Positions 8,757-31,487 of a stretch of 64,000 nt of DNA are shown here, piece by piece (the first letter of the stretch is position 1; the number at the start of each line of letters is the position of its first letter). The position numbers were made by a program, and so were the translations under genes. The notes under the pieces were generated by a model, which made no database searches, was not told the origin of the DNA, and saw only the letters and a list, made by a program, of their open reading frames with translations. This DNA is from Closterium sp. NIES-65 (lineage: Eukaryota > Streptophyta > Zygnematophyceae > Desmidiales > Closteriaceae): NCBI GenBank assembly GCA_948144175.1, contig CANXME010000511.1:997001-1061000 (forward strand). The letters run 5' to 3'.

Positions 8757-10455
<1,699 letters not shown>

Positions 10456-11040: not shown

Positions 11041-14000
11041 TTACTTGGCAGCGGCAGGGGGCGGCGCTCGGGCACTGAGGATGCTGAGCCACGCCACCAC
11101 ACCCACACTCAAAATCACCCACCCTGCCACGTCATACCACAGATCGCTGCTCTTCTTTTTCTTCTGGACCTGCAGATGGGGAAGCAGTCACAGCCATACA
11201 GTGAGGTGCGACACTTCAAATCACCACTCTGCAGCTCGAAATCAGAAAACAGGCCCGTTCAGATCGACTGACATGGCGAAGGTGGATAGATGGACAGCCG
11301 CCCCCAATGACTGCTGCTGCCCCAGCCGCCCCCAGCAACGGATGTTACCAAGAGCCCACGAAAATCAGGATAAGTGGGTCATTAAAGGATCGTCATACCT
11401 TGGGAGCATCCATGGACGATGGGTGCACAGCCGCCCCCAGCGCCTGCTGTAGTGCCATCTGCTTCAGCACCTCTTGATGCAACTCAGGTTCAAGTGCACT
11501 AGACAACATTGAAAGTGCATTGATGAGAGTACAGTACCTTGGGAGCATCCATGGACGATGGATGCACTGCCGCTCCCAGCGCCTGCTGTAGTGCCATCTG
11601 CTTCTGCACCTCTTGATGCAACTCCGGGCCCTGCAACCGGTTCAAGAAAACTTGTTAGTAATAAAATACTACTCAATATCAGCCAAACATAACCAGGGAA
11701 GTAGAACACTTTACGAGGTATCTGCGTCTCTCCACCTCCTGATGCATCTCAACAGAAACACCGGAATTGAAACGCCAAGAGGATTTGGCATCAGGCGGGG
11801 AAAACACAGCAAAGCACACCCAAACGGGACTCACCTTCAGAGAGATCTCCAGTGACTTGCGGTAGGCGTCGTTGCTCGGGTCCTGCCAGCCAGTGAGGCA
11901 CACAAGCAGTGAAACGAAGGGGGGGTGTGCGGTAAAGATTAGGGTTGAAGGTGAAGGGGTAAGGGAGACCGCCCCTCCAGTGACTTGCGGTAGGCGTCGT
12001 TGCTCGGGTCCTGCCATGCCATGGGGGGGAGAAGGTTTACAAGTTGAAAGGTTGAAGGTTTGAATGTTTGAAGGGGTGCGATCTCAAAGCTGACGTTGGC
12101 CATTGTGGCATCGGGTGTCTGGAACCCCCTCGTGGTGTGCGCGTTGACAACTAAACCACGGAGAACCGCACTGAACCACACCTACCGCGTTGGCCAGGGT
12201 GGCATCGGGCGTCTGGAATCCCCTCGTGGTGTGCGCATTGCCAATCCGTACAGAAGAACCATACCCCAACATGCTAAAGAGCCGCGCTGAACCGCACTGA
12301 ACCACATTGAACCATGACGTACCGCATCCAGCGCCTTCCTGAAGCAGTCGGAGGCCTTTTCAAAGCTGACGTTCGCAAGAGTAGCGTCAGGTGTCTGGAA
12401 TCCCCTCGTGGTGTGCGCGTTGCCGAGCCACCACAGCGTGTCCGGGCGAGATGGGGCGATCTTGAGAGCTTCGTCAAATTTCGAGACAGCATCTGGAAAA
12501 GGAAAGAACGAAAGAAGAGGGGTGGAACATTGGGCGTCAGGCGTCTGAAAGCCCCTCGTGGTGTGCGCATTGCCGAGCCACCACAGCGTGTCGGGGCGAG
12601 ATGGGGCGATCTTCAAGGCTTGGTCAAATTTTGATACGGCATCTGAGGACAGGGCGCGGCAAGGAAGGAAGGGAACTCATTTGGAAAGGAGATGAAAGGA
12701 GGAGTGGAGAGGGGAGGAGAAGAGGGAGATTTTTGGGACGTCTTAAAGCCCACGGAGTGTGCCCTAGCCCAAAAGAGCCTGAAATGAAAACCCCTGGTGG
12801 TGTGCGCGTTGCCATCTTTTGTGCGCCTTCACCACAGAGTGTCAGGCCGAGAAGGGGAGATCTTGAGAGCCTCATCAAACTTCGACAGGGCATTTGAAGG
12901 CAGAGGATGGGGAGAATCGGGGACGGGATGGAAAGGGAGGAGCACGTTTGAGTGAGACCCCTCATAGCTACCGGCACGCCGCAGGCCAGAGGGTGTTGGG
13001 GCGAGACAGGGAGAAGGTCAGGGATTCATCGAACTGAGACGACTCTTGAGGCGCCTCAAAAGTAGCCAGAGGGTGTTGGGGCGAGACAGGGAGACGGTCA
13101 GGGATTCATCGAACTGAGACGACTTTTGAGGCGCCTCAAAAGTAGTCAGAGGGTGTTGGGGCGAGACAGGGAGACGGTCAGGGATTCATCGAACTGAGAC
13201 GACTTTTGAGGCGCCTCAAAAGTAGTCAGAGGGTGTTGGGGCGAGACAGGGAGATGGTCACGGACTCATCGAACTGACAAGGCATCTGACGATAGAGTGT
13301 GGGGAAGGGGAGGAGAAGAACATTTGGAAGAGGGGAGGGGAGGGGAGGGGAGGGGAGGGGAGGGGAGGGGATGGAGGGAAGCGGAGGGAAGTGGAGGGAA
13401 GCGTTGTAACACTCACCATCCAACAACTCAATGGACTCTTGCCCCTGAATTAGCTGCGGCAGCCAACTTGCAGTTATCAACAGCCTTTTGACTCGTTAAG
13501 AGCATCCCCGTTACACTCACTGTCCAGCATCTCGTTCGACTCCTGCCCCCGAATGAACCGCGCAAGTCCATTTTATCAACAGCCTTTTGACTCGTTATGA
13601 GCAGACCCGTTACACTCACCGTCCAGCATCTCGTTCGACTCCTGCCCTTAAATGAGCTGCGCCAGCTCCACCAGCAAGTATAGTTATTTTGGTTATAGGC
13701 AACCTCAGACCCCGTTACAAGTCAAGTCGTCTAGTTACAAACTCGTTATAAGCCCTCTGTTACACTCACCATCCAGCATCTCATTCGACTCCTGCCCCTG
13801 AATGAATTGCGCCAGCTCCACGAGTGTTCGGCCGAGCTTGGTCAGATTCTGAGTGGCACAGATGGGGACAATGAAAGGAGAGGAGCAGATGAGCAGAAAA
13901 GTAGAGAAGCGGTGAAGCAGGGAATCAGGGAAGCAGGGAAGCAGAAAATATGCGACGCGAAGAGGCAGAGAAGCAGAGAAGCAGAAACGCAAGGACCAAA

Positions 14001-14966
14001 CCTCGCCGGATTTTGCAAGGGTTCTACGATAACAGCGCCTGACACCTGGGCGACTCACTTTCGAGTCGATCGACACACCTCTGAGTCGACTCAAAGGTTC
14101 CCTCGCAAGAACCAAACCTCGGCTGGTTCTAAAAGAGCTCTCGACGATAACAGCGCCTGACACCTGGACGACTCACTTTCGAGTCGATCGATTCACCTCT
14201 GAGTCGACTCAAAGGTCACCTCGCAAGGAAAAAACCTCGCCGGATTTTACAAGGGATAACAGCGCCTGACACCTGGACGACTCAACCCCGCCACGTGCTA
14301 CGGGTCTGCGCTCTGCGACCGCACCTGCGACTGTACCTGCGATCGAACCAGCGACCGTACCTGCGACTGTACCTGCGACTGTACCTGCGGCTGAACTTGC
14401 AACCGTACCTGCGATCGCACCAGCGACCGTACCTGCGACAGCACTTGGAACCATACCTGCGGTCAACCTGCGACAGTACCTGCGACCGCAGCTGCGACGA
14501 TACTTGCGACAGTCTCTGCGACTATACCTGCGACCATGTCTATATATGTTGCTGAATTCTCAGCACACCTACATGTGCTCCCTCGTTTGCTCGGAAAACA
14601 TGCTTCGCAATTCAAGCAGGCCCAACTTGAACCAACAGCCCCCGTGAAAGTACTCACATCGGCGTCATGTGGGTTCTGGACTCTACCATCTCCTGCTCTT
14701 GAAGCGTACACCGCTTGAACCAACAATCCACCATCAAACTACTCACATCGGCATCATGCGAGTTCCTCTAGCATTCTGCCATGGCCTGCTCCCTCGTCTG
14801 CTCGAAGAACATGATTCGCATTTCAAGCGGGCCAAACAGCAGTCCCCGTGAGATTACTCTTACTCACATCGGCGTCATGTGGGTTCTTCTTGAACTCTGC
14901 CATCGCCTGCTCCCTCGTCTGCTCGAAGAACATGATTCGCTCAAAGTCTTCCCTCGGGATCTCCAT
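11041..14966 (-). CDS. TOM20: Plant-type TOM20, mitochondrial import receptor subunit
   Basis: TOM20 of the outer-membrane TOM complex binds mitochondrial presequences. Six exons join in frame to 205 residues: 14868-14966 (1-33), 13770-13848 (34-59), 12323-12492 (through 116), 11835-11882 (117-132), 11538-11630 (133-163), 11041-11169 (164-205 and stop). All introns are GT-AG. Exon 1 carries FERIMFFEQTREQA and NPHDAD; exon 3 holds LWWLGNAHTTRGFQTPD, matching the plant motif LWCLGNAHTS; exon 4 has DPSNDAYRKSLE; exon 5 PELHQEVQKQ. Exon 6 has a Lys cluster, WYDVAGWV, a single membrane span (about 177-196) and a PPP tail, as in plant TOM20, which is C-terminally anchored, opposite to animal/fungal TOM20. 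Length fits (about 200). Every intron carries partial copies of neighbouring exons. Confidence 0.93.
11397..11488 (-). repeat. Near-complete second copy of TOM20 exon 5
   Basis: Minus strand reads LHQEV, then MALQQALGAAVHPSSMDAPK, almost the same as exon 5 (11538-11630). It ends in a usable donor (AAG|GTATGA) and is preceded by ..CTGAG. If spliced in after exon 5 it would keep frame and repeat about 29 residues. It could be a cassette, a mutually exclusive alternative, or an unused echo. Confidence 0.75.
11975..12018 (-). repeat. Echo of TOM20 exon 4 acceptor side
   Basis: Minus strand contains an AG acceptor followed by a copy of DPSNDAYRKSLE, then diverges into intron. It lies upstream (in transcript order) of the true exon 4 at 11835-11882. 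Confidence 0.75.
12060..12250 (-). repeat. Two downstream echoes of TOM20 exon 3
   Basis: Two partial copies (about 12090-12160 and 12186-12245) read NAHTTRGFQTPDA followed by ANVSFE or similar on the minus strand. They lie in the intron after exon 3. Confidence 0.75.
12530..12900 (-). repeat. Two upstream echoes of TOM20 exon 3
   Basis: Copies near 12530-12645 and 12785-12895 contain the FDEALKIAPSRPDTLW or FDEALKISPSRPDTLW part, with an acceptor-like context before it. The second is split by unrelated sequence. Both lie in the intron before exon 3. Confidence 0.75.
12975..13285 (-). repeat. 80-bp tandem array: exon 3 acceptor echo plus palindrome
   Basis: Four copies of the exon 3 start (AG acceptor, FDESLT, SLSRPNTLW) on the minus strand, with an 80-bp period between units beginning at 13061, 13141 and 13221. 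Each junction carries TTTTGAG-GCGC-CTCAAAA; the arms are perfect at 13122-13143 and 13202-13223 and have one mismatch at 13042-13063. Confidence 0.85.
13320..13395 (+). repeat. GGGGA/GGGAA simple repeat in TOM20 intron 2
   Basis: Runs of AGGGG followed by degenerate GGAGGGAAG units. Simple-sequence expansion with no coding meaning. Confidence 0.8.
13410..13670 (-). repeat. Three donor-side echoes of TOM20 exon 2
   Basis: Minus-strand copies of GQESNEMLD-type sequence followed by GTGAGT occur near 13412-13455, 13515-13560 and 13614-13665. They lie downstream of the true exon 2 (13770-13848). Each keeps the exon's 3' end and its donor. Confidence 0.85.
13985..14285 (+). repeat. About 117-bp tandem repeat with GAGTCGACTC palindrome
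   Basis: The unit (AACCTCG.CGG ... ATAACAGCGCCTGACACCTGG.CGACTCA) occurs two and a half times in TOM20 intron 1. Each complete unit contains CTGAGTCGACTCAAAGG, a one-mismatch member of the palindrome family. Confidence 0.75.
14316..14533 (+). repeat. Degenerate 12-bp tandem repeat in TOM20 intron 1
   Basis: Units of the form ACCTGCGACYGT are repeated about 18 times with point changes. Open frames in it (GTVAG.. or TCD..) are artefacts of the 12-bp period. Confidence 0.85.
14570..14860 (-). repeat. Donor-side echoes of TOM20 exon 1
   Basis: Partial copies of exon 1 (FEQTREQAMAEF.. and NPHDAD followed by GTGAGT) occur near 14579-14700 and 14739-14840, in the intron just after the true exon 1. 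Several keep the donor site. Confidence 0.8.
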
Positions 14967-14979
14967 GCTCCCTCGCTGT

Positions 14980-15165
14980 CCGTTAACGTCTGGTCCTTGA
15001 CTGTTAACGTCAGATCCTTGACGGCGAACGTCTGACTCTGACCGTGACCGTTTGATTCTCAACCGTTACCGCTAGACTTCAGTCGATCACGTCTGATCCT
15101 TTACGTTTAGCGTCTAATCTGAAATGCTCGTCCAATCCTTGACAGTTAACGTCTGATCCTCGTCC
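14980..15165. promoter_or_regulatory. TOM20 upstream region with AACGTCTGATCCTTGAC repeats
   Basis: Directly upstream of the TOM20 start codon, a unit of about 20 bp (GTTAACGTCTGATCCTTGAC on the + strand) recurs with decay at least five times. The ACGT core is typical of plant bZIP-type sites, but a regulatory role is inference. Confidence 0.45.
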
Positions 15166-15744
15166 GTAATATCGGCGAATTAAGTCAACTACAATCTGAT
15201 CGACGCGCGATGACGTCCCTTTTACTTTCACCTCGAAACCATATATCTCAAAAAGCGAACGGCAAAAGCGCGAACGAGGCGTCGACGCGTCCTAGCCTGC
15301 CGCGAATCCAGCAAGGTTCAAGCGAGCAGACTAGCGAGCAGTCTATAAACTTCAGGAGGAGATTAGGGAGGGGTGGGTAACAAGCGAGGGGGAAAACAGA
15401 TGGGAGGGCGGAGGGGAAAGGTGGGGTGGGGTGGGACAGGCAGGGTATACAGTGGTTACCCCACAAGGCTTCTGCGACAGGCGAAATCTGCTACGAATCG
15501 GTACACAACCGAAGCATGACATGTTACGTGCAGTACGCCAAACCTGCGATCAAGCCTAAATCCCATCAACGCCGAACCTGCGTTCGAACCTCCGCAGGCT
15601 CGCTTTTTTGGCGTGGTTCAATCAGGCTCTCAAGTTTTGAATGCAATATACGGGATTCTAGTGAGGTGAAAGATCCATACAGTACGCGGTATCAGCAATT
15701 CATTAGAGGTTCTCAGCTCATACAGTAATATACCATATACAAAA
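15166..15744. other. Intergenic between TOM20 promoter and the next minus-strand gene
   Basis: No convincing gene. Contains purine-rich low-complexity sequence near 15340-15440. Confidence 0.45.
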
Positions 15745-17029
15745 CTAGGTACATCTCGAATCATCAAACACCCAGGGCTCGTGGATAAACAGCTCTCTTC
15801 CATTCATAGGCACTCGCCCCGCTGCTATGTCCTCTGCTCTTTTCCTGGCTGCCTCCTCTTTCCTTGCACTTTCCTCTTGGTCCTAAGTCATAAGAGACAA
15901 GGACGGGATAAGACAAAACCAAAATCAGATCGGCAAGGGGATAAATCCCGAAAGAACTTAGGTCGAGGACAATGGGGAGGAAAATAAACAGCTAATCACT
16001 GACAAGTCTACAGCCACAACAGAAACAGTCAACTGACCCACGCCGGATGATGGATTCAGGCCAACCGGGCAGCCATGGCCCCCCACACACTGGAAGGAAA
16101 TTCAACTTCACACATACAACGAAAACATCCTTGTTCACATCCTTCACATACACTGGAAGCTCACTTTCAAACTCACCTTCCTGGCCTTCCACACACGGAA
16201 CTGCTCCAGAGTCATTGGCACAAGCCTGGCCCTCGGCTGCTGGCTTTGCAGGCAGATGCCCATCCACAGGTGCATCTACTGCTGGTTCCTTGTATTATAT
16301 GGCCAGAGCACGGCTTTCTAGCACACCTGACGCTCACCTTCCTGGCCTTCCATTCACGGTACAGCTCTAGAGTCATTGGCGTGCAGTTGCTGGCTCTACT
16401 GGCAGGTTCTCACCCACAGGTGCATCGACTGCTGGTTCCTTGTATTATCTGGCCAGAGCACGGCTTTCTAGCACACCTGACGCTCACCTTCCTGGCCTTC
16501 CATTCACCGTACTGCTCCAGAGTCATTGGCGTGCGGTTGCTGGCTCTACTGGCAGGTTCTCACCCACAGGTGCATCGACTGCTGGTTCCTTGTATTATCT
16601 GGCCAGAGCACGGCTTTCTAGCACACCTGGCGCTCACCTTCCTGGCCTTCCATTCACCGTACTGCTCCAGAGTCATTCGCGTGCGCCCTCAGTTGCTGGC
16701 TCCCCTGGCAGATGAGACTCTAACCCGGCTTTCAGTCACAGCACACCCTTCAAACACAACACACCTTCCTCGCCTTCCACGTGCGGTACTGCTCCAGAGT
16801 CATTGGCGTGCGCCCCTCAGCGGCTGGCTCTGCTAGCAGGTCCCCTAGTAGGTCCCCATACACATACAAGCTCACCTTCCTCGCCTTCCATTCACGGTAC
16901 TGTTCCAGAGTCATTGGCGTGCGCCCCTCAGCGGCTGGCTCTGCTGACAGACGCTCATCCACAGAAACTTCCACTGCTGCTTCCGCTCGCTCCCCTGCGT
17001 CTAGATACTCCGCTCCCATGGTGCGATGT
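15745..17029 (-). CDS. Last two exons of a possible DFRP1/ZC3H15-like protein (partial)
   Basis: Two minus-strand exons join in frame: 16876-17029 (51 codons plus one base) and 15745-15882 (45 codons and stop). The first reads MGAEYLDAGERAE, then an acidic stretch and TPMTLEQYREWKARK, ending at a GTGAGC donor. The second is a Lys/Arg/Glu-rich helix, then VPMNGRELFIHEPWVFDD. The order TPMT-x-WK, charged helix, M-(S/N)-GREL-F resembles the C-terminal half of plant C3H11/C3H21 and ZC3H15 (DRG-family regulatory protein 1), which stabilises translation GTPases of the DRG family. That is family knowledge; the CCCH fingers are not in view. Upstream exons could not be resolved: an exon-like piece ending GAA|GTGAGT near 18513 does not fit the phase. 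Confidence 0.45.
16165..16870 (-). repeat. Donor-side echoes of the 16876-17029 exon (150-bp array)
   Basis: At least five partial copies containing PMTLEQYR-WKARK and the GTGAG donor start near 16171, 16333, 16483, 16633 and 16763. Three of them are in tandem with a period of 150 bp. All lie downstream of the true exon. Confidence 0.85.
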
Positions 17030-17034
17030 CTGCT

Positions 17035-18345
17035 GGGTTGCATGGGGTGAGAGGAGATAAAGAGTGGATGGAGGGACTTGGAGTTGAGTCGCCTGAGACT
17101 TCATCCACACGCACATCTACTGCTGGTTCCGCTCGCTCCCCTGCGTCTAGATACTCCGCTCCCATGTCGCCTGCGGGACAATGGAAGAGGAATTGGGAGT
17201 GGATGGGGGGATCGAAGGTCACCCACAGGCACATCCACTGCTGCTTCCGCTCGTTCCCCTGCGTCTAGATACTCCGCTCCCATGGTGCGATGTCTGCTGG
17301 GTTGCATGGGGTGAGAGGAGATAAAGAGTGGATGGAGGGACTTGGAGTTGAGTCGCCTGAGACTTCATCCACACGCACATCTACTGCTGGCTCCGCTCGC
17401 TCCCCTGCGCCTAGATACCCTGCTCCCATGGTGTGATGTCTGCTGGGTTGTATGATGAAAGAGAGGAGAGGATAAGGGGTGGAAGGGAGGGGTATAAGGC
17501 GTCTTCAAAGCTCACCCACAGGCGCATCGACTGCTCGTTCCCCTGCGTCTAGATACTCTGCTCCCATGGCGCCTGCTGGGTGGCATGAGGTGAGAGGAGA
17601 TCATGAGTGGAAGGGGTGGATTTGAGGCGTAGAAACTCGGTTCCGCTTGCTCCACTGCGTCTAGATACTCGGCTCCCATGGTGCCTGCTGGGTGGCATGA
17701 GGAAAGAGAGGAGAGGATAGGGGGTGGAAGGGAGGGGAAACAGACGCCTTCAAAGCCCATCCACAGGCAGGCAGCAGACTGACTGCTGGTTCCGCTCGCT
17801 CCCCTGCGTCCAGATACCATGCTCCCATGGCGCCTGCTGGGTTGCATGGGGTGAGAGGAGATCGAGAGTGGGAGAGAGGAGTTTGAAACGCGTCAGAATT
17901 CATCCACTCCACTCCACTCCACTCCACTCCACTCCACTCCACTCCACTCCACAGGCGGATCGGCTGCTGCTGGTTCCGCTTCTTTCCCTAGAGTGTTTAA
18001 ATACTCTACTCCCATGGCGCCTGCTGGGTTGCATGGAGTGAAAGGTTCGGGAATGAAAGGCGAGTCAAAGCGCATTGCACAGGCGGATAAACTGCTGCTT
18101 CCGCTCGCTCCCCTGCGTCCAGATACTCTGCTCCCATGGCGCCTGCTGGGTTGCATGGGGTGAGAGGAGATCGAGAGTGGACGGGGGGGATTTCGGGGCG
18201 AATCAAAGCTCATCCACAGGTGCATCGAGCGCTGGACCCCTGCGCCTAGACACGCCGCTCCCATAGTGGCGCCTGCTGGTTCCGCCGGTTCCCCTGCGCT
18301 TAGATCCTCCGCTTGTTCTGCTCCCATGGCGCCTGATGGGTTGCA
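17035..18345 (-). repeat. Acceptor-side echoes of the 16876-17029 exon, about ten copies
   Basis: Roughly ten copies of CAG followed by MGAEYLDAGERAE-like sequence lie upstream of the true exon, with intron sequence between them. A 265-bp segment is duplicated (17036 and 17301). Reading phases differ between copies, so they could not all be exons. One copy near 18230-18340 is itself scrambled. Confidence 0.8.
17904..17952 (+). repeat. (ACTCC)n microsatellite
   Basis: Nine to ten perfect ACTCC units inside one acceptor-side echo. Confidence 0.95.
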
Positions 18346-18417
18346 TGAGTTGAGACAGAGGAGATCGAGAATTCATCCACAGGCACATCCACTGCCGGCA
18401 TGCGAGGGGATGAGGTG

Positions 18418-18437
18418 ACTTTTGAGTCGACTCAAGA
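18418..18437. repeat. TTTTGAG-TCGA-CTCAA palindrome
   Basis: Member of the palindrome family with one arm slightly decayed. It lies between two copies of GAATTCATCCACAGGCACA (about 18370 and 18453). Confidence 0.8.
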
Positions 18438-18676
18438 GACAGAGGAGATGGAGAATTCATCCACAGGCACAAACACTGCCGGCATGGGAGGGGATGGGGC
18501 GCGGACTCACTTCTATAGCAAGGTGATCCAACGGCTGACATTCACGATGACTTTTGGAATGATTACAAGGCAGGCGAGGGAGGAATCACATCAAAGGCAA
18601 GCGACGGGTGAATCGCGAAACGCACCTCTACCGCAAGATGATTCGCGACTCGCGAGGATGAACAGCGCCTTGGATG

Positions 18677-18739
18677 CGGACGGACGGACGGACGGACGCG
18701 ACGGACGGACGGACGGACGGACGGACGGACGGACGGACG
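18677..18739 (+). repeat. (GGAC)n microsatellite
   Basis: About 15 GGAC units with one interruption (CGCGA). Confidence 0.95.
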
Positions 18740-18744
18740 GGCGC

Positions 18745-19954
18745 CCGTGTACGGATGAAAGGGTGTGCCTGATTCGTGAAGACGCGCGAGCGCGACGGCG
18801 GCAGGCGCTGGCGAAGCTACGCGAACGAGTGCGAAGCTATGCGAGGAGCTACCAGGAGTGGCGAAGCTATGCGACAAGGTGTTATGAGAGTGGCGATGCG
18901 ATGCGACATACTGGAAGTGGAGGACGTAGCTGATGGAGATAGAACTAATTGGCGTGTGTGGTGTAGTGGGATTTAATATGGTGCAGTATGTTTTGGTGTG
19001 GTGTGGGATTGTGTGGTGTGCTGCTGCATCATATCATCCTTACCAAAAGCAGTTCTGGTTGCAAACAACCCACAGCTTGACACTGAACACAAACACAGTT
19101 TTGTTATTCGTGCTTCCGTTTACTGCATTAAAATGAGAATTGTGTTTACTTCCGTCCCTTAGAACCAGTTGAGTATCTGTTTTGAACATTATGGATGAGC
19201 AGAAGTTGGGAAAGTTGTTGCTGTTGTTTGAAACGTTAGCGAAGCAAACGCTGGTGTTGTAAAATATCGAAGCTCTCTATAACCATACAGTTCTCGGGTC
19301 AACGGAAACTTTAAGCCTTGAACAGCCCTGACGCAGTCAGCCGACTGAATATTTTCTCTGTTCCCTGATAAGCCCGCAATTATGTTCCGGACCGTAGAAA
19401 AACGGTTTTGAACCTTCCGAGACCATACGGCTGTGTGATCAGAAAAAGTGGACCACGACTCCAGCTTTTGACCAGCAGCGCAGCGCCACGATGAAAAGTG
19501 CCCTGCCAGAGACACCACACCACCACCACCCCCATCAGTCTCCCTCACACCACGCCACGCGGGAAAAATGCCTCACATCCCATTCCATTCGCCGCCACAT
19601 GACATTGCGCGCTTCGCAGAACGCTGTTTTCAGAAATCCTGATTTCAACCGCCAACAGAATTTCATCACCACCCAACCCCAGCCTCTGCACCGCACCAGC
19701 TCCTTTCTTTCCCCCATAGTCTTGACATCACCTGCTATCATCGTGGCGATCTGGATTCATGCTGCCTAAAACGCGATCAGCATAAGCACCGGACTGATCC
19801 CAATAGCTTATCAGTCAAATCAACTTCTTTGCCGATCAGTCCAGCAACTTATCCGTGAGACTCAATTAGCTAAAACATCTCCTACTCGCATCCGCCCGGA
19901 AGCCCCTAAACCGAGTCAAACCGCTCGACCAAGTCTGTTCGCGCCGCGATCACA
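18745..19954. other. Intergenic / promoter of the Cys-rich gene
   Basis: No supported gene. A minus-strand frame of 119 codons at 19189-19548 has no recognisable motif and may be chance. Sequence just before 19955 should contain the promoter of the next gene; no clear TATA box. Confidence 0.4.
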
Positions 19955-21166: not shown

Positions 21167-21779
21167 GGGCGTGTTCAGTGTCATTTCTCCCAAGGCAATT
21201 CCATCCTGGGTGCCAACTAGATTACAGTAATTAGGATGTATGTCAATTACCATAGTATTAGATCACGCGCATGCTGCAGAGGCTGATTTTAATAATGCAA
21301 GGAGAGGCCATGCATATTACCCCCTTTTGCGTGGTCAGCTCTCAGCTCGAAACTGGGAAACCAGTGGATGCTGCTTGCAAAGATTCTGATGAGGGGGAGC
21401 AAGCAACCATTGTTGTTTCTGGTCGTTTGGCTCTGCTGTGGTATTGCTGCAAGGTCAAAAGCACACAGCGGCGAGAATCTCGTTATGATTATTTCTTTAT
21501 AGGTAGTTGTCAATCAGAAAGTTTCAAGTTGTCAATCAACTGAAACCTTCTAAGATATGTTCAATAAGATTTGTTTAGATATGCTAGGAAATGGCTTAAA
21601 GCAACAGCGGAACAAAGCAGTAACGGATACGTAAATCCGCCCTCGTCCACCATCACCACCGCACCCACACAGACCGAAACGTACCTCCGACGCCGCGAAT
21701 CCCGCGAAAAAAATGTATTCAGACGGCGCGCGCTTGCACACTTCCCCCCAGACGCGCCATTCCACGTGTCGGTCCGCGA
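21167..21779. other. Intergenic before the hydrolase gene
   Basis: 3' UTR of the Cys-rich gene and upstream region of the next gene. Nothing else recognised. Confidence 0.45.
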
Positions 21780-22082
21780 GTGGGCCATGGGCGTTCCATG
21801 GGCTCGTTAGGGTTGACCTCGTTTTGGCCAATCCAGATTCAGTCGGCTCGACGGATTCCGTCTTGTCTAGGGAACTCCGCGAATCTCGGATTCTCTGCTA
21901 GTAATTCCCCGATAGGACGCCTTGGGAATATCGTGCTGCCTGGTTTTTGGCGAGAATTCACAAGCAGCCGGCGGAAAGGCGGAAAATTTCGGCGAAAGGC
22001 GATTTGCCGGTCGTGTAGCGCCGGCGGGGTTTCGCGATTCGCTGTTGGAAGCGCCGTGATAAGCGGCGGTGAAAGCGGGACA

Positions 22083-24307
22083 ATGGCGAGCGGCGGTATA
22101 ATCGAGGAGGCGGAAAACGTGGATGGCGGAGCGGGGGGCGTGGGGATGGAGATGCGCGGGGTGCTGTTCCGGTGGGGGGAGATGGGCGTTAAGGTGCGTC
22201 ATCGCTTTAGTGTTTACTCATTATAAGCATACACCTCGCACTGATTTCCCCACCAATCCCTGCGCGCCTCGCTCATCCCAGGTCGCCCTCCGCTCGTCCG
22301 GCTTCCCCCGCCACGTCATCATCCTAGGTGGAGGCGGGGGAGAAGGGGAGGGGAAAGCGGGGAATTGGGAGGAGAGAGTGGGGAGGGGGAAGCAGAGAAC
22401 GGGGAAGGAAGAGGGGAGAAGGGGGGAGGGGGAAAGGGACTCAACAGATAACTTGTTTCTCCCTGTGATCTGTGGAAGACGCAGGGACCCCTCGTGTGTC
22501 TCTCTCCTTCCTTCCTTCCAGGTGGCCTTCCGTGATAAAAGTTGAGTTTTGAGACGTCTCAGAAGCTGCAGGGTGTTTTTAAGAATTCTCAAAAACACCC
22601 TGAAGTTGAACTTTGAGACGTCTCAGAACTCAACTTTTATCACGGAAGGCCACCTGGAAGGAAGGAAGGAGAGAGACACACGAGGGGTCCCTCCTCGTGT
22701 CTAACCCTCTCTGGGTCTCTCGCCTTTCCCCCACGTCGCCTTCCGTCCGTCCGACTTCCCCCTCCACGTCACAGAGGTGAATTATGAGTCGGCTCTTGAG
22801 TTGACTTTTGAGTCGACTCTTGAGTTGACTTTTGAGTCGACTCTTGAGTTGACTTTTGAGTCGACTCTTGAGTTGACTTTTGAGTCAACTCAAAACAAGG
22901 TGACTTTTGAGTCGACTCAAAAGTCTTCCGTCCGTCCGACTTCCCCCTCCACGTCACAGATAACAACCTCCCTCCCCTCCCCCCCCCTCCCCTCCGCGCA
23001 CCCCCTATTCCCCCCCTTCCCCTCCCACCGTCTCTCTCTCGCCTTCCCCCAGGTTGCTCTTCGCTCGTCCGATTTCCCTGCCACGTCATCATCCTAGGTG
23101 GAGATGGGGGAGAGGAGGGGGGGGTGGAATGATATCACAGGTCGTGTCCCACATCATTTTTTTTAAATTCTCAGAAGCATGGAAAGCGCTTTCGAGAATT
23201 CTCAAAAGGATCTCACAGGTCGTGTCTCTCACATCACATCATCCTGACTTGTTTCTCTCCGCCCCTCTTCCCCCCCCCCCACCCTCTCCTCGTGACTTCC
23301 GCCTTACCTCCAGGTCGCCTTCCGCTCATACACAAGTCATCTCTTCCTCCTGTCTTCTCTCCCACGTTCCTCCAGGTTATTTATGAGAATTCACAAAAAT
23401 ACCATGCAGCGGTGGGGGGAAGGGGGGGTCTCATACACAAGTCATCTCCTCCTCCTGTCTTCTCTCCCACTTGCCCCTCTCAGGTCGCCTTCCGCTCAAA
23501 CGACTTCCCCTGCCACGTCATCATCCTAGGAAAGGGGCAGGATCACATAGGACAATCCTTCCCCCCCATCCCCTCCCCTCCTCCACCCTCCACCTCCCAG
23601 GTTGCATTCCGGTCATACGACTTCCCCTGCCACGTCATCATCCTAGGGAAGGAGAAAGTTAACACTCTCTTTCCTTTGCCATGCCACCATCTTAGGTGGA
23701 GGAAGGTGGGGGGGAAGGGGGGTCTCATACATAAGTCATCTCTTCCTCCTGTCTTCTCTCCCACTTTCCCCTCTCAGGTCGCCTTCCGCTCGTCCGATTT
23801 CCCCCGCCACGTCATCATCCTTGGTGGCCTCACGGACGGGCTGCTGCCGACGCAGTACACCGCCAGGCTGGCGTCCGAGCTGGCAGCCGTCCATTGGTCG
23901 CTGCTGCAGACTCAGCTTTCATCGTCTTACTTTGGATACGGCGCTGCGTCATTAGAGCAGGTATGGCAAGTGGGGATATCCCAGGAGGTGAGAGTGCATT
24001 GTATACAGTGCCATTGTAACGAGGTGACTTTTGAGTCGACTCAAAAGTCACCTGGATATCACAGGAGGTGTGCACATATCCAGCGGCCGTGTTTTGAGAC
24101 GTCTCAAAACACTTCTTCATACACGGGGATATCCCAGGAGGTGAGTGCACTGTGTACAAATCCAGCGGCCCTCAGCCGCTCGTTGGTCGCTGCTGCAGGC
24201 GCAGCTGTCGTCATCTTACTTTGGATACGGCACCGCGTCGTTAGAGCAGGCATGGAGTTGGCGGAGGAAGGATGGGGACTGGCAGTGCAATGTGCCTCAC
24301 TCACCTC

Positions 24308-24341
<34 letters not shown>

Positions 24342-27300
24342 AGGCGCAGCTGTCGTCATCCTACTTTGGTTACGGAGCAGCGTCGTTAGAGCAGGTAGGG
24401 CGGAGAGCGGACGGAGGAATGGGGTGATACATGGCGGTGCAATGTGCCTCACCCACCTCAATGTGCCTCACTCACCTCAATGTGCCTCACTCACCTCAAT
24501 GTGCCTCACTCACCTCAATGTGCCTCACTCACCTCAATGTGTTAGAGACTAAGGATCGAGTCTGTGAAGATTAGGAGCCTAAATTTCTCAAAATCGTTGG
24601 CTTGAAATTCTGGACAGAAACCGCAACTTCACAAGAAACGTTGTCGACGAAAAGTGCACCGTTAGAATCGTCTCAAACTCGAGTATGTTATAGCCCTTGT
24701 TTGTGGCTATCATTCCCAATTTGAATCGTATCGAAAGGTGGAGTAAATCTCGAGTTATGCTTCTCAGCGCACCAGGGGGTATGCTGCCACATAGAAATTA
24801 AATTCACTCACAATAGTTTCACAAGTTCACAAGAGTTGCACACAAGAGAGTTAGAGTAGCACTAAACCAGATAGGAGGAAAGAGGAGGACGAGAGGGAAG
24901 GTCCCAAGGAGTCCCCAACCAAAGAAAACTCCATGCCACACAATTCCCTTCCCCATAGGCAACCCAACTTTGACCTTTGTCACTATCCCAACCTCCACAA
25001 TCCACCTCAACCCAACTTGGCCACACTTGCCAACCTGGTTTGGTTTCTCCCAACCAATTGGCAGCAACTACAGTAGTAGTGACGAGTTTCCCAACCCCCA
25101 AAAGTCTGTACCCCATATTGACTCAACCCCACAACTCTCCATGGTCACCACAACCAAATATCAAAAGCATACGAACTCCAACGTTCGTAACTTTCTTGTT
25201 CGTGCTCCGATTGAAGTGATTCTTGGTTCGTCGGAAAGCTCTTGAGCAGTGGAGTCACTTCAGATATCTGCTCAAGCCAAATAACATTCACACACACTCA
25301 GAAAATCCAAACCACAGAAAAACACAAATTCTTGCGCACGCTCATTTCACACATGCAACGCACGAACACATGATGGGAGGCAGACAGACGTGAATGCAAA
25401 TGATAGCATCACATAACACAATGTGCCTCACTCACCTCAATGTGCCTCACTCACCTCAATGTGCCTCACTCACTTCAATGTGCCTCACTCACCTCTTGCT
25501 GCTGCTGCAGCAGCAGACTCAGCTGTCGCCATCAGTCGCTCCCACATGCTCCATCCTCCTGCAGTGCAATGTGCCTCACTCACCTCTTGCTGCTGCTGCT
25601 GCAGCAGACGCAGCTGGCGCCATCAGTCGCTCTCACATGCTCCATCCTCCTTCCCCTGCCGCCCCTCCCCGTCCCTCTCTGTCTTTATATGCCCATTCCC
25701 ATACCCCACGTCCCACGTCCCCACGTCGACTCAAAAACAGACTCAATGCTGCCCCTCCCCGTCCCTCTCTGTCTTACTATGCCCATTCCCATACCCCATG
25801 TCCCGTGCACTCCGCCCCCTATTAGGATGCTACCGAAATAGATGACCTCATCGCTTACATCATCAAGCGGTACCAGGCCTCGGAGGTCGTCCTGGTCGGC
25901 CACAGCACAGGCTGTCAGGTGAATAAAACAGAGGACCTGCGTGTCAGGTGAATGCAACAGAGGGCCTGCGTGTCAGGTGAGTACAACAGAGAATACTGCA
26001 CGCCAGATTAATCAAGGAAAATGACATACCAGGTGAATTCAATAGAACTCCTTGTCAGGAGATTGCAACAGAAGGCGATGGTTCGTCAGGTGCACACAAC
26101 AGAGGGCAATGGCATGCCAGGTGAATTTAGCAGAGGACAACGTCACGTTGCCCCATACCCACCATGCCCCATACCCACCATGCCCCATACCATACCCACC
26201 ATGCCCCATACCATACCCACCATGCCCCATACCATACCCACCATGCCCCATACCATACCCACCATGCCCCATACCCACCATGCCCCATACCCACCATGCC
26301 CCATACCCACCATGCCCCATACCCACCATGTTCCATACCCACCATGCCCCATACCCACCATGCCCCATACCCACCATGCCCCATACCCAGCATACCCCAT
26401 ACCCAGCATACCCCATACCCACCATGCCCCATATTCTCTGCCCCATACATTTTTCCCAGAAATGTCTCATCCCTTATAGGTGCCCCACAGTTCCTTAAAG
26501 GTGCCCCGCGGCTCCCAGCTCCCTATCAGCCTCCTGCCAGTGTGTCTTCTCAGAATCGCCTCCTTCCTTTCAATAAAACAAGTGTTTTGAAACGTCTCAA
26601 AACGCTTCTTGTATCACGTGGCTACTCCTGCCAGTGTGTCTTCTCAGAATCGCCTCCTTCCTTTTGGCCACCCGCTTTGCCCAGTTTCATCCCCCCAACA
26701 TGGCTACTCTCTCCCCTGCCTCCTGCCAGTGGGTCTTGTCAGAATCACCTCCTTCCTTTCGATAAAAGAAATGTTTGAAACATCTTAAAGAAGTGTTTGA
26801 AACATCTCAAAGAAGTGTTTGAAACGTCTCAAAGAAGTGTTTGAAACGTCTCAAAGAAGTGTTTGAAACGTCTCAAAGAAGTGTTTGAAACGTCTCAAAG
26901 AAGTGTTTTAAGCATCTCAAAGAAGTGTTTTAAAAGAAGCAGTTCCCGCTTCGCCCAGTTTCATCCCCCCAACATCTCTACCCTCTCCCCTGCCTCCTCC
27001 CAACATATCTCCCCCCTCCCCACATGCCTCCCATTTCCCTCTCCCCACAACCTTCCCCCTTCTCCTTTATCAGCACATAGTGGCATATCTCAAGAGCAAA
27101 AGATGCACCCACCTCGCCACTGATGTTAGCGGGGTGCAGTACGGTGCGGTGCGGTATATCTCTCCCACTCCCCCGTCTCCCTTTTTCCTTCCCTCGCCTC
27201 CTCCTTTATCAGGACATAGTGGCATTTCTCAAGAGCCAAAGATGCACCCACCGCAGCATTGGCCTCAGAAGGGTGCAGTGCGGTGCAGTGTGGTATATAT

Positions 27301-30300
27301 CTCCCTCTTCCCCCTCGTCTCTCCCTTCATAGTGGCATTTCTCAAGAGCCAAAGATGCACCCACCGCAGCATTGGCCTCAGAAGGGTGCAGTGCGGTGCA
27401 GTGTGGTATATATCTCCCTCTTCCCCCTCGTCTCTCCCTTCATAGTGGCATTTCTCAAGAGCCAAAGATGCACCCACCGCAGCATTGGCCTCAGAAGGGT
27501 GCAGTGCGGTGCTGTGCAGGCATGCAGTGCGGTACAGTGTGGTATATATCTCCCTCCCCCCCAACGAGTCTCCCTTTATATAGTGACATATCTCAAGAGC
27601 CCTAACTGCACCCACCACAGCTTTGGCCTCAGAAGGGTGCAGTGCGGTGCAGTGCAGTGTGGTATACCTCTCCCACTCCCCCCCCCCCCCCCCCCACCTT
27701 TCCCCTCTCCCATCAGGACATAGTGGCGTATCTCAAGAGCACTAAAGCTATCCATCGCAGCGCAGTCAAAGCCGCCATTCTTCAGGTGCCGCCATTCTTC
27801 AGGTGCCGCCAGGTGGTTTTCCAGGTGATGCCATATTGTTTCCACGGCTTGTTCTTAGATGCATTCTGTGGTTTTCCAGGTGCTTTCAGGTAGTTCTCCA
27901 AGTGCCATAAATTTTGATTGCAGGTTATGTTTTTCAGGTGGTTTTTCAGGTGTTCTGAGCAGAGATCCTAGTTTCCAGTCCTGATCCCAGCTAGCTGACA
28001 AGCCACAGTCATTGAAACCCGTTCAGCACATCTTAGTCTCGCTTCCTTCCGTTTCGCCTAAGAATAGGCACCAACGAGTGACAGGGAGTGCATGGAGCAG
28101 CAGGGGATGGAGGGAGGGGAGGAGTCTGAGGAGTGACAGGTTATGAATCAGGTGGCACAGGCTATGATCACTCACATACCGTATTCCTTTTTTCCCTTCC
28201 TTCCCCCCCACCAGGCCCCAACGAGTGACAGGGAGTGCATGGAGCAGTGGGCGAGGGAAGGGGGGGAGGGAAGCTGAGGAGGCATTTGAGGAGATGAAAC
28301 GAGAAGCACATGCCATGCTCACTCCCATTCTCCCATACCACATCCCATCCCTCCCTGCCTTCCCCCCCGCCAGGCCCCAACGAGTGACAGGGAGTGCATG
28401 GAGCAGCGGGCGAGGGAAGGGGGGGAGGGAAGCTGAGGAGGCATTTGAGGAGATGAAACGAGAAGCACATGCCATGCTCACTCCCATTCTCCCATACCAC
28501 ATCCCATCCCTCCCTGCCTTCCCCCCCGCCAGGCCCCAACGAGTGACAGGGAGTGCATGGAGCAGCGGGCGAGGGAAGGGGGGGAGGGAAGCTGAGGAGG
28601 CATTTGAGGAGATGAAACGAGAAGCACATGCCATGCTCACTCCCATTCTCCCATACCACATCCCATCCCTCCCTGCCTTCCCCCCCGCCAGGCCCCAACG
28701 AGTGACAGGGAGTGCATGGAGCAGCAGTCGAGGGAAGGGGGGGAGGGAAGCTGAGGAGGCATTCGAAGAGATGAAGCGGGTGGCACTAGCAATGATTCCC
28801 CATCTCACTCACATTCCCTTTCACCTGAAAGAAGGAGTGTTTTGAGACGTCTCAAAACACTCCTTCTTTCATGAAGCGGGTGGCACTAGCCGTGATTTCC
28901 CCATCTCCCCCACATTCCCTTTCACCCCCCACCAGGCCCCAACGAGTGACAGGGAGTGCATGCAGCAGCAGGCGAGGGAAGGGGGGAAGGACACAGAGGA
29001 TGCCTTTGAGGAGATGAAACGGGCGGCGCAGGCCATGATTGCGGGCGGCAGAGGCGCCGAGATGATGCCGAGAAGTGCCGACCCGCTCGCACCTATCACA
29101 GCGTACAGGTGGGTCTAGCAAGCCAGTCACTGCCCTCTGTGTTGAGGACAGTTTTGAGAACTTTTTAGTCAATTGATAGATGGGTCTAGCATGCCAGCCA
29201 AGGAACCTGCAACACGGGCAGAGATAACTGCCTTTCGTGGTGAAGATACTTTTGGGAATCCTCCTGAGAACCCTCCTGAGAACCCTCCTGAGAACCCTCC
29301 TGAGAACCCTCCTGAGAATCCTTGTAAAAATCCTCTTTTGAAGATACTTTTGAAGGCACTCAAAAGTAACTCCGGCATGCGCCACGTCTGCCCTCCCTGC
29401 AGGTTCCATTCCCCTGCTGGCAGGCATGCACGGGAGGGGACGATGCCATGATGCTCGGCTCATAATGTTCGCCTCCTCTACTGACATGTTTTGAGACGTC
29501 TCAAAACACACGACAGCTCCCCTACTGACATGATGCTCAGCTCATACTGTTCGCCTCCTCCGGTGCACATAACCCGTCCGCTCCCCCTCCCCCACCTACA
29601 CATTTCTGCCCTCCTACATACCCTTCCTGCAGGTTCGCTTCCCACCATGGGTGGTGCTTCATTGTGCCCTCCCATGCTCACTCTCCCCATGCCCATACTT
29701 CACCTCCCTCCTGCAGGTTCCACTCCCTGGCGTGCACGGGAGGGGACGATGACATGTTCAGCTCTGAGTTTTCAAAGTTTGCCCTTTATACCTGCGTGTG
29801 CCCCTCATGCTCCTTCTATTTGCCCTCTCATCCACCCTCTCACCTCTCAGGTTCCACTCCCTGGCGAGCATGGGAGGGGAGGATGACTTGTTCAGCTCGG
29901 ACTTTTCAAAGTTTGCCCTTTATACCTGCGTGTGCCCCTCATGCTCCTTATATTTTCCCTCTCATCCACCCTCTCACCTCTCAGGTTCCACTCCCTGGCG
30001 AGCATGGGAGGGGACGATGACATGTTCAGCTCTGACTTTTCAGACGAGGAGTTGAAGGAGCGGCTGGGGCACATGGGTGCATGGCCGTGCCTGGTGAGAG
30101 TGTTAGCTTGTGGTGACTTGTGGGGAGTTGGATGGGTGCATGGGTGGGCGCATGGGTGCATGGGTGCATGGGTGCATGGGCGCATGGGTGCATGGCAATG
30201 ATGGTCAGATCAGGGAATATATATGTGTACCCAATCTTATTTATACCATACCATGCTCCCCCATCCATGAAATCACCTTGTGATTTTCCACGCAGGTGAT

Positions 30301-31487
30301 TCTATCAGGGGAGGATCAATACGTGCCAAGAGCTATAGACAAGGAAAAGCTGCTACAGAGGTAAAGGCTCCCTCTTTCTTCCATTCCTTCTCTTTTGAGA
30401 TTTCTCAAAACAAGCCAAGAATCATCGACAAGGGAAAGCTGTTACAGAGGTAAGTTTTGTAGTTTCTTTCATTCCTTCCCTCGACTGTGCAAATTTCATC
30501 CCCTGTTCTCTTGCTGCCCCTGTCCTCTCCACCCTTGAACCATGTCCCTCTCTTCTTTCATCTCTTTCTTTTTGTCTCTTCCTTGGCTTTTCCTCTCTTC
30601 CTTTTCTTCTCTTCCCTCTCCTCTCTTCCCTCTCTTCTCTTCTGTTTCCTCTCTCCCCTCTCCTCTCTCCCCTCTCCTCTCTCCCCTCTCCCTTCGTCCC
30701 TCTACTCTTTTACCTTCCTTCGCTTTTGTTGCCTCTGCTTCATACCTTTCCTCTTCTCGCCCTTTCACTCATCGTGCTTTTTCCTCTGACTCTCCATTAA
30801 TCATGATGATCCCACTCACTTAGTTTCATCACTCACAAGTAACAGGCCTCTTTCAGTTGCTAGCTTAGCTTATTCCCTTTTCCCTGTTTTGCACCTTTTC
30901 AACTTTCATCACATGCATTTGTTTATTACATTACCCTGTTGTTTCCTCATTACTGTTCTCGTTTTCTTCTGTATTGGTGCTGTTGCATCAAAACACCACC
31001 TTTTCATGCCACTGCTGATCCCACCTTCCGTCAAACTCTGTTCTCTGCTGCTATGGCTGGTGCCACCCATGCTATGAATGCTACAGCCAACAAACTCCCT
31101 CACTAACACTCTTGAGTCGACTGAGAGGCGACTCTCTGAGTACCGTAACACAGTCGATAATAACCCAACCATTCTATCCCACTGTTAATCCCACCACCCT
31201 TCCTTCGGGCTCTGTGCTGCTATGGGAAATGCTACCCCTGTCCTAATTCCTGGAGCCGACCACTCCCTGCGTAACACAGTGGGCGACAACACATCCGTTT
31301 CATGCCCCCAATTAAGGCTCTGTCTGTGCTGCCACCCTTCATCCCATCACCCACCCTTCCTCCCTTCAGGCTCTGTGCTGCTATGGGTGGTGCCACCGCT
31401 GCCCTAATTCCTGGAGCCGACCACTCCTTGAGTAACACAGTGGACGAAGCGGTTACCACGATAACGGATTTCATTAAGGAGCTTTAA
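22083..31487 (+). CDS. DUF1749-family alpha/beta hydrolase
   Basis: Eight exons join in frame to 306 residues: 22083-22193, 23778-23960, 25826-25918, 27717-27785, 28936-29108, 29985-30093, 30296-30360, 31370-31487. All introns are GT-AG. Landmarks: GVLFRWG; HVIILGGLTDGLL (oxyanion region); SSSYFGYGAASLEQD; nucleophile elbow GHSTG with Ser125; DIVAYLK; APTSDRE; MPRSADPLAPITAYR; DDDMFSSDFSDEEL; SGEDQYVP with Asp253, the likely acid; GADHSLSN with His286, the likely base. This order matches plant and fungal DUF1749 proteins, the family that includes the fungal siderophore esterase SidJ; the plant substrate is unknown. The frame is open upstream to an ATG at 21780, adding 101 Ser/Arg-rich, acid-poor residues that could be an organelle transit peptide. 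Introns are long because they hold exon echoes and a solo LTR. Confidence 0.92.
22483..22692. repeat. 210-bp near-perfect palindrome
   Basis: Left arm from AGGGACCCCTCG (22483) and right arm ending CGAGGGGTCCCT (22692), with no spacer and centred on GAATTC near 22583-22588. Each arm contains an exon 2 echo and a copy of GAGACGTCTC. Confidence 0.9.
22787..22925. repeat. 24-bp tandem array built from the palindrome
   Basis: Four 24-bp units (TTGAGTTGACTTTTGAGTCG + ACTC), then a complete ACTTTTGAG-TCGA-CTCAAAAGT palindrome. It reads LELTFEST repeatedly in one frame, which is an artefact of the period. Confidence 0.9.
24022..24053. repeat. 32-bp perfect palindrome, centre TCGA
   Basis: Arms AGGTGACTTTTGAG / CTCAAAAGTCACCT around TCGA. 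Confidence 0.97.
24089..24112. repeat. 24-bp perfect palindrome, centre ACGT
   Basis: Arms GTGTTTTGAG / CTCAAAACAC around ACGT. Confidence 0.97.
24440..25505 (+). repeat. 19-bp tandem repeat AATGTGCCTCACTCACCTC, split by a solo LTR
   Basis: Six or so units before 24540 and four or so after 25418, with one more near 25566. The array was interrupted by the solo LTR insertion. Confidence 0.92.
24540..25418. mobile_element. Solo LTR of the B1 Copia family, in hydrolase intron 2
   Basis: 879 bp, starts TGTTAGAGAC and ends ATAACA, flanked by CAATG at 24535-24539 and 25419-25423. Closely similar along its length to the two B1 LTRs (33093-33959, 37264-38130). No internal region, so probably produced by LTR-LTR recombination. 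Confidence 0.93.
25660..25820. repeat. Duplication with palindrome half at the junction, before exon 3
   Basis: GCCCCTCCCCGTCCCTCTCTG ... CATTCCCATACCCCA occurs twice (about 25665 and 25749). Between the copies is ACGTCGACTCAAAAACAGACTC, a decayed palindrome-family member near 25726. Confidence 0.75.
25919..26145 (+). repeat. Donor-side micro-echoes of hydrolase exon 3
   Basis: About seven units of roughly 30 bp, each ending GTCAGGTGA or CCAGGTGA, repeat the last bases of exon 3 (GCTGTCAG) plus its GTGAAT donor. Confidence 0.85.
26150..26440 (+). repeat. CCATGCCCCATACC minisatellite
   Basis: About 18 units of 15-20 bp. It is open in several frames on both strands, which is a period artefact. 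Confidence 0.95.
26580..26945. repeat. 22-bp array derived from the ACGT-centre palindrome
   Basis: A decayed palindrome at about 26583-26603, then eight or so tandem units GAAGTGTTTGAAACGTCTCA+AA from about 26768 to 26935. Flanks contain the duplicated block TGCCAGTG(T/G)GTCTT(C/G)TCAGAATC. Confidence 0.88.
27070..27716 (+). repeat. Acceptor-side echoes of hydrolase exon 4 (113-bp array)
   Basis: Copies of ATAGTGGC(A/G)T(A/T)TCTCAAGAGC start near 27078, 27217, 27330, 27443 and 27584, before the real exon at 27717. The middle three are in tandem with a 113-bp period and include the GGTGCAGTGCGGTGCAGTG tail. Confidence 0.9.
27786..27960 (+). repeat. Donor-side echoes of hydrolase exon 4
   Basis: The end of exon 4 plus donor (GCCGCCATTCTTCAG|GTGCC) is repeated 17 bp later, and decayed CCAGGTG/TCAGGTG units continue to about 27950. 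Using the second donor would shift the frame. Confidence 0.75.
28060..28935 (+). repeat. Acceptor-side echoes of hydrolase exon 5 (160-bp array)
   Basis: Copies of CCAACGAGTGACAGGGAGTG begin near 28070, 28217, 28377, 28537 and 28697, then the true exon at 28936. The middle copies form a near-perfect 160-bp tandem array carrying AG plus about 75 bp of exon sequence. Long frames here on both strands are artefacts. Confidence 0.93.
28827..28870. repeat. 44-bp perfect palindrome, centre ACGT
   Basis: Arms begin GAAAGAAGGAGTGTTTTGAG. The copy lies exactly between two direct repeats of about 60 bp (from GAAGCGGGTGGCACTAGC to CATTCCCTTTCACC). Confidence 0.97.
29255..29322 (+). repeat. 12-bp tandem repeat CCTGAGAACCCT
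   Basis: Five to six units in hydrolase intron 5. Confidence 0.92.
29398..29984 (+). repeat. Acceptor-side echoes of hydrolase exon 6
   Basis: Copies starting at AGGTTCCA(T/C)TCCC near 29400, 29631, 29716 and 29851 precede the real exon at 29985. The last two extend through DDDMFSS-F before diverging to the same sequence (AAAGTTTGCCCTTTATACC). Confidence 0.9.
29487..29508. repeat. 22-bp perfect palindrome, centre ACGT
   Basis: TGTTTTGAG / CTCAAAACA around ACGT. It is placed between two copies of a block containing CTACTGACATG and ATGCTC(G/A)GCTCATA. Confidence 0.96.
30120..30195 (+). repeat. GCATGGGT 8-bp repeat
   Basis: About eight units in hydrolase intron 6. Confidence 0.9.
30361..30460 (+). 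repeat. Donor-side echo of hydrolase exon 7 with palindrome
   Basis: The last ~40 bp of exon 7 and its GTAA donor recur at about 30411-30455. Between exon and echo is TTTTGAGA-TT-TCTCAAAA (30393-30410). Confidence 0.88.
31020..31290 (+). repeat. Acceptor-side echoes of hydrolase exon 8
   Basis: Copies of the CTCTGTGCTGCTATGGG exon start near 31035 and 31209 precede the true exon at 31370. The second extends through IPGADHSL. A decayed GAGTCGACT palindrome lies between them near 31112-31130. Confidence 0.85.

Follow-up and report, generated by a model that had tools for sequence, protein, structure and literature searches.

Short palindromes between duplicated flanks in the nuclear genome of Closterium sp. 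NIES-65: a candidate for a very small insertion unit

Short palindromes are known from the organelle genomes of Volvox carteri, where they lie in introns and spacers, form hairpins with loops of 3-5 nt and are thought to be selfish, and copies of them in the Volvox nuclear genome were judged inert (PMC2670323, in the passages compared). Among the systems considered here, these organelle palindromes are the nearest in form to the palindromes of Closterium sp. NIES-65. The Closterium units are, however, nuclear, carry four main centres and lie between two copies of their flank (F-P-F, with F for the flank and P for the palindrome), and a long flank duplication is not mentioned in the same passages of PMC2670323. 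The nearest in process are small fill-in tandem duplications, in which the flank is doubled at a break. Such duplications have been attributed to offset nicks and overhang fill-in (Vaughn and Bennetzen 2014, via PMC7407515; PMC8355091), with inserts of varied origin, taken from neighbouring or ectopic sequence (PMC7407515). In Closterium a flank is likewise doubled at a formerly single site, as found at two loci with paralogous empty sites; in contrast to the offset-nick inserts, the same four palindromes recur genome-wide, and a recurrent palindromic insert is not described in the portions of these papers that were compared. Symmetrical stwintrons and introner-like elements are whole introns with terminal repeats of 45-55 nt and lack a flanking duplication, as far as the relevant passages of PMC8469720 go. 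The stwintrons share with the Closterium units a nuclear location, an inverted-repeat structure and proliferation, and are associated with introns, whereas here the flanks are duplicated. Bacterial REP/REPIN sequences, with their RAYT enzymes, are likewise dispersed palindromes, of 20-40 nt, and have been proposed to be non-autonomous elements; unlike the present units they are bacterial, and the descriptions compared make no mention of flank duplication. MITEs and foldback elements are non-coding, inverted-repeat elements of high copy number that duplicate their target. The terminal inverted repeats are found here too, the 18-nt unit being an inverted repeat throughout, but a fixed, family-specific target duplication is not, as the duplicated flank, measured at 40 of 54 loci, has a median of 31 bp and a spread of 11-99 bp; the unit also differs from MITEs in comprising just 18-46 nt and in being a palindrome over its whole length. 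No earlier description of F-P-F palindromes was found in the open-access literature, among the matches listed.

The window, i.e. the whole stretch of DNA analysed, comprises 64 kb (C511:997001-1061000) of an assembly of 874,075,685 bp in 2,400 contigs. The initial annotation of this stretch had described a family of palindromes of the form TTTTGAG-N4-CTCAAAA, located in putative introns. The family is confirmed and extends far beyond the window, with TTTTGAGNNNNCTCAAAA found at 30,327 places in the 874-Mb genome as compared with 4 for the reversed-pattern control. Within the window, 16 sites with at most one arm mismatch were observed versus 0.05 on average in 20 first-order Markov controls, and the 18 sites found when two mismatches are allowed are all confined to the interval 13.0-30.4 kb. 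The perfect palindromes with a half-length of at least 11 in the 64 kb belong to the family in seven of seven cases, one AT run excepted, and a palindromic centre is present in seven of the nine perfect-arm sites. Every perfect copy named earlier was recovered, at or no more than one base from its original position (13122-13143, 13202-13223, 24022-24053, 24089-24112, 28826-28871 and 29487-29508), the palindrome at 28826-28871 being 46 nt long and exceeding the previous 28827-28870 by one base on each side. Perfect copies absent from that annotation are located at 22902-22925 (TCGA) and 22878-22895 (perfect arms, centre TCAA). Its group of decayed copies stands in part: the copies at 14079 and 14197 carry three mismatches each and that at 31110 four, and those at 18420 and 26585 deviate from the motif by one base, as does the copy at 23190 (previously placed near 23205), whereas the arms at 30393 are perfect around an ATTT centre and at 25725 only the right half of the palindrome is present. 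The motif had also been reported missing from the retroelements and the histone locus, in agreement with its absence from the long open reading frames bearing copia-type motifs, and from the open frame at about 10150-10450 (approx. 10.2 kb), which is presumably histone H4-like by its motifs and looks to be of plant type. The sites and their surroundings are collected in Table 1.

Table 1. Palindromes of the family and associated duplications in the 64-kb window (window coordinates; F, duplicated flank; P, palindrome)
Position	Strand	Feature	Details
12985..13277	.	80-bp tandem array, about 3.7 units, with GCGC palindromes	Copies at 13044 (one mismatch), 13122-13143 and 13202-13223
14026..14239	.	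118-bp tandem duplication	Two decayed TCGA copies (14079, 14197)
18352..18496	.	F-P-F around AGGTGACTTTTGAGTCGACTCAA	F 18352-18412 and 18436-18496, 57/61 identical
22483..22692	.	Inverted duplication around AATT palindrome	79-nt arms, 78/79 alike; ACGT copies inside at 22547 and 22611; left arm like native intron end (by-eye reading)
22740..22960	.	36-bp direct repeat, copies identical (22740-22775, 22925-22960)	Between the copies, 24-bp array (22774-22891) and TCGA palindrome 22902-22925
23131..23236	.	AATT copy, one mismatch (23190)	Two gapped flank copies, 26 and 28 bp
23325..23470	.	AATT copy, two mismatches (23381)	Enclosed by flank copies (about 41 bp each; spacing 105 bp)
23974..24143	.	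17-bp flank present three times (23974, 24054, 24127)	Spacers hold TCGA palindrome 24022-24053 and ACGT palindrome 24089-24112
25661..25804	.	54-bp F duplication (51/54)	Right half-palindrome only, GTCGACTCAAAA at 25725
26531..26664	.	F-P-F, 40-bp F identical	ACGT copy 26585; C1951 paralog F-P-F-P'-F
26765..26934	.	22-bp array	Units like ACGT-type halves
28770..28926	.	F-P-F; gapped alignment of F (about 56 bp) with 51 identities	46-nt perfect palindrome 28826-28871
29447..29560	.	F-P-F, F 32 bp (30/32)	ACGT palindrome 29487-29508; palindrome missing in C1951
30338..30453	.	F-P-F, F 27 bp (25/27)	Perfect arms, centre ATTT at 30393

Four palindromic centres account for 26,579 of the 30,327 sites (87.6%), namely TCGA (13,080), GCGC (5,851), ACGT (5,047) and AATT (2,601), and all C..G centres together occupy 8 places genome-wide, four of them CCGG; the typing covered the four main palindromes and the C..G class, which leaves 3,740 places. 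These counts include redundant contigs and are inflated, as one locus (C6:109169, C1658:28518 and C347:82736) is present in three copies of 100% identity and the assembly or the genome is therefore redundant. Variation of the centre between copies is not free-ranging, C..G centres being nearly absent. Among 74 context-distinct fetched sites 68 carry one of the four main centres, and the six others (TCAA twice, ATTT, TTGA, AATC and ACAT) are each one substitution away; consequently, the centre is best read as a family label that marks discrete families. At the loci examined the outer arms partly follow the centre family: a TGAC outer arm is frequent in TCGA copies, with CGTTACGAGGTGAC as the longest case, and an AGTG outer arm is found in several ACGT copies, whereas no common arm was seen across seven GCGC loci. 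Single-strand folding predicts simple hairpins with a four-base loop, at -3.7 kcal/mol for 18 nt, -12.4 kcal/mol for 30 nt and -22.1 kcal/mol for 46 nt. Outside the genome, the ACGT 18-mer was matched by 11 stretches in a prokaryote genome collection versus approximately 4 expected by chance, a number near chance by our own estimate (257 Gb), and the general pattern was found in at least 120 stretches of viral contigs.

The main feature, missed in the initial annotation, is that most copies examined sit between direct copies of their flank. The locus set used here consists of 54 loci, taken from the first-listed places on a few contigs, from C511 and from the window, a non-random sample that includes two near-copies (L193 and L194), and the analyses of flank score, arm length and F length made on it cover perfect-arm copies, so that truncated copies are under-seen. 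A flank-to-flank score of at least 12 was obtained at 46 of 52 perfect-arm loci (two of the 54 were dropped, as the next palindrome lies less than 12 nt away), as compared with 4 of 1,434 cross-paired controls; the remaining 6 loci scored below 12, and 14 of 54 failed a closer test of the F boundaries. Similarly, 27 of the 40 sites of an earlier set, which admitted up to two mismatches, reached a score of at least 10; among cross-paired flanks 7 of 587 did so, and among random positions of this DNA 75 of 564, the latter control already containing the background level of duplication. In 40 of the 54 loci the flank copies come to within 14 nt of the core on the left and 36 nt on the right, and the ends of the F length range at these loci (about 11-99 bp) are soft, with array-internal matches at 13124 and 22878 of the window and at L136, L183 and L194. 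No target consensus was seen at the F boundaries of the 40 loci, and a bias in the downstream bases stems, at least in part, from arrays, in which another palindrome comes next. Inserts go down to the bare 18-nt core in array loci (L192 and L193), the smallest at a single site being 19 nt (L159). A motif-independent scan for F-x-F structures over 264 kb, ungapped and hence missing sites such as 28840, returned 203 duplications, of which 12 have a palindromic spacer, 9 of these belonging to the TTTTGAG-N4-CTCAAAA family. Duplications without a palindrome are thus common in this genome (191 of 203); as tandem duplications arise here so readily, the palindrome is to be seen as a special kind of filler, and some of the machinery may operate independently of P.

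Paralogous sites offer a view of such loci without the palindrome. The F-(46-nt palindrome)-F structure at 28840 corresponds to a single F lacking the palindrome on the paralogous contig C1951, where the aligned right side is 93.6% identical (140 bp) and the left side 87% (86 bp). The flank doubled at C6:109169 spans an apparent exon end and a donor-like site, and three nearby exon copies, 73-78% identical and two of them alike over the aligned stretch, contain a single flank and lack the palindrome. The reading frame would be preserved here if the upstream donor were used, so that an exonic insertion could be tolerated. The two remaining comparisons are less simple. At 26585 the number of units differs between the paralogs, with F-P-F in the window and F-P-F-P'-F on C1951; at 29489 C1951 is devoid of the palindrome, and a single clean insertion does not account for the complexity of the local structure. 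Given the F-P-F flanks and the empty paralogous sites at two loci, the copies resemble insertions of a palindrome of 18-46 nt, accompanied by target duplications of considerable and variable length. The suggestion of a small element unfamiliar to the initial annotator is thereby supported, by the insertion behaviour, the duplicated flanks and the paralogous empty sites.

We consider it somewhat better than an even bet that a break with staggered ends has its overhangs filled in and captures a preformed palindromic piece. This reading draws on the flank repeats, the empty sites, the differing unit numbers of paralogs, the prevalence of four centres, the unequal arm lengths and the one-arm decay described below. 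P would then be a very small repeated insertion unit, composed of the 18-nt core TTTTGAG-N4-CTCAAAA and partly family-specific outer arms, and it is perfect over up to 46 nt among the copies seen. The target would be opened by a pair of offset nicks at a distance of about 11 to 99 bp, fill-in of the overhangs would leave F on both ends, and a self-complementary piece already formed as a hairpin or short duplex would be captured between the F copies, its outer ends having been trimmed; the resulting F-P units could afterwards multiply into tandem arrays. The arms bear on the trimming step. Their lengths are unequal between the two sides at 15 of 26 TCGA loci and equal at 11 of 26, as compared with 4.2 in permutations (p 0.0006), and the left and right lengths are correlated (Spearman 0.66 over 32 TCGA loci). 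This correlation and the excess of equal arms argue that trimming is not fully independent; it is neither fully shared nor fully independent, and sub-types confound the comparison. Against the capture of a preformed piece it must be said that neither a donor molecule nor a master locus or an enzyme came to light, that equal and correlated arm lengths exceed what fully independent trimming would give (with sub-types again confounding), that the structure at 22483-22692 joins its flank inverted and not direct, that the structure at 29489 is too complex for a single clean insertion, that F-x-F duplications lacking a palindrome are common, and that 6 of 52 loci fell short of the score of 12 and 14 of 54 failed the closer test. 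If upheld, the unit would be among the smallest repeated insertion units known to us in a nuclear genome, at tens of thousands of copies, and from its sites one could read, as in a natural archive, in what way breaks with long overhangs open, are filled in and close. They could also reveal how minisatellites originate (F-P-F, then F-P-F-P-F) and show how an exonic insertion is tolerated where the duplicated flank includes a splice site.

The palindromic centre itself is best explained by a different process, in which both filled-in ends of a break gain the same tail (TTTTGAG followed by four bases), for which an RNA or DNA may have served as template, and the tails pair through these terminal four bases. 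Only a self-complementary tetranucleotide would close the break, and the centre would be palindromic by necessity. Such cohesive tails account for a centre that is nearly always palindromic between constant arms, for the frequently unequal starting points of the left and right arms, for the one-sided case at 25725 and for half-sites that number 1,683 genome-wide versus 165 in the control. However, these half-sites are few relative to the 13,080 full sites, more half inserts being predicted than are seen, and some of them are full copies decayed by point mutation, as they recur among the places of the one-arm mutants discussed below. Moreover, only four palindromic centres are used in number, and the template was not found. 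As an account of the insertions, cohesive tailing is in our judgement unlikely. The broader possibility, that the palindrome represents a new class of nuclear mobile DNA, a bodiless 18-nt joint formed where identical tails close through a self-complementary four-base end, is advanced tentatively, as one that we rather doubt; if it were true, the spread of the motif would be the by-product of a dedicated end-tailing repair activity, with target duplications, pseudo-exons and minisatellites as its products. A four-base centre also resembles the rejoined overhang left after a larger transposon with TTTTGAG..CTCAAAA ends had inserted, duplicated its target and departed, the rejoined ends making up the palindrome, and transposon scars do retain target duplications. 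Target duplications made by a transposase characteristically have a fixed length, whereas those found here vary from 11 to 99 bp; furthermore, the ten half-sites listed from 264 kb give no indication of a larger element, and half-sites are rare genome-wide (1,683 versus 13,080 full sites), making an excision scar quite improbable. The converse order of events, in which an older P stalls replication and its neighbour is duplicated, finds some backing in the F-P arrays that exist in the window (periods of 24 and 80 bp) and elsewhere. It should double P, though, while a lone P is flanked by two F at most of the single loci inspected, and the empty paralogous sites have neither P nor a second F; we regard it as very unlikely.

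The initial annotation had also suggested hairpin-templated synthesis, taken here as a correction by which resident copies are kept palindromic as their centre drifts. This was addressed at one position of one family, using the G-to-A change beside the centre of TCGA copies. The one-arm form occurs at 127 + 105 = 232 places, whereas the symmetric two-arm form was found at 0 places in the same genome count. By our own arithmetic, independent mutation predicts approximately one double, and correction predicts about as many doubles as there are one-arm forms. At this position resident copies thus simply decay, one arm at a time, and the symmetric changes by which quasi-palindrome correction would be recognised did not occur (0 versus 232). 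Correction also fits poorly with the near lack of C..G centres. What speaks for it is the structure at 22483-22692, where an AATT centre had been noted before and is indeed present, as an inverted duplication with 79-nt arms. An apparent native intron end has been copied inverted around the AATT palindrome, with 78 of 79 positions alike, so that fold-back synthesis also occurs locally. Hence, of the earlier interpretation the small element is retained, while hairpin-templated upkeep of resident copies is left unsupported and appears to us highly improbable. Nuclear capture of organelle palindromes would have a precedent in Volvox, the nuclear DNA of which contains copies of organelle palindromes according to the passages of PMC2670323 compared. 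We searched 5 kb of plastid-like sequence and 2.5 kb of another rRNA-bearing contig, a small sample, and found 0 copies with at most two mismatches; an organelle origin is considered extremely unlikely. The 202-kb contig C2218 contains two inverted small-subunit rRNA matches approximately 8 kb apart (128425-138171), has a GC content of 42-44% in two sampled stretches and is probably plastid.

Several other repeats were noted in the course of the analysis. Another repeated palindrome, CAAACTGTGCACAGTTTG, occurs at L149:4207-4224 and L151:3888-3911, and L142 holds two palindromes (7353-7374 and 7422-7439) that have a common arm, ATAAGCGC, and different centres. GC-rich imperfect hairpins of the CCGCCG..CGGCGG type serve as spacers of direct repeats at L146:521, L155:8014 and one more place, among the matches listed. 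A 91-bp unit present in about 1.9 copies at 25476-25651 of the window fills most of 4 kb on C1951 (L207), and C1951 also carries a tandem array with a spacing of approximately 98 bp (L208, about 1900-4500), as compared with a 134-bp unit at 29714-30042 of the window. Finally, the window contains six partial repeats of one exon-like stretch with an acceptor-like site (22276-23827), beside a DUF1749 match at 23133-24389 (Pfam E 1.2e-11), and these repeats are possibly pseudo-exons left by duplications.
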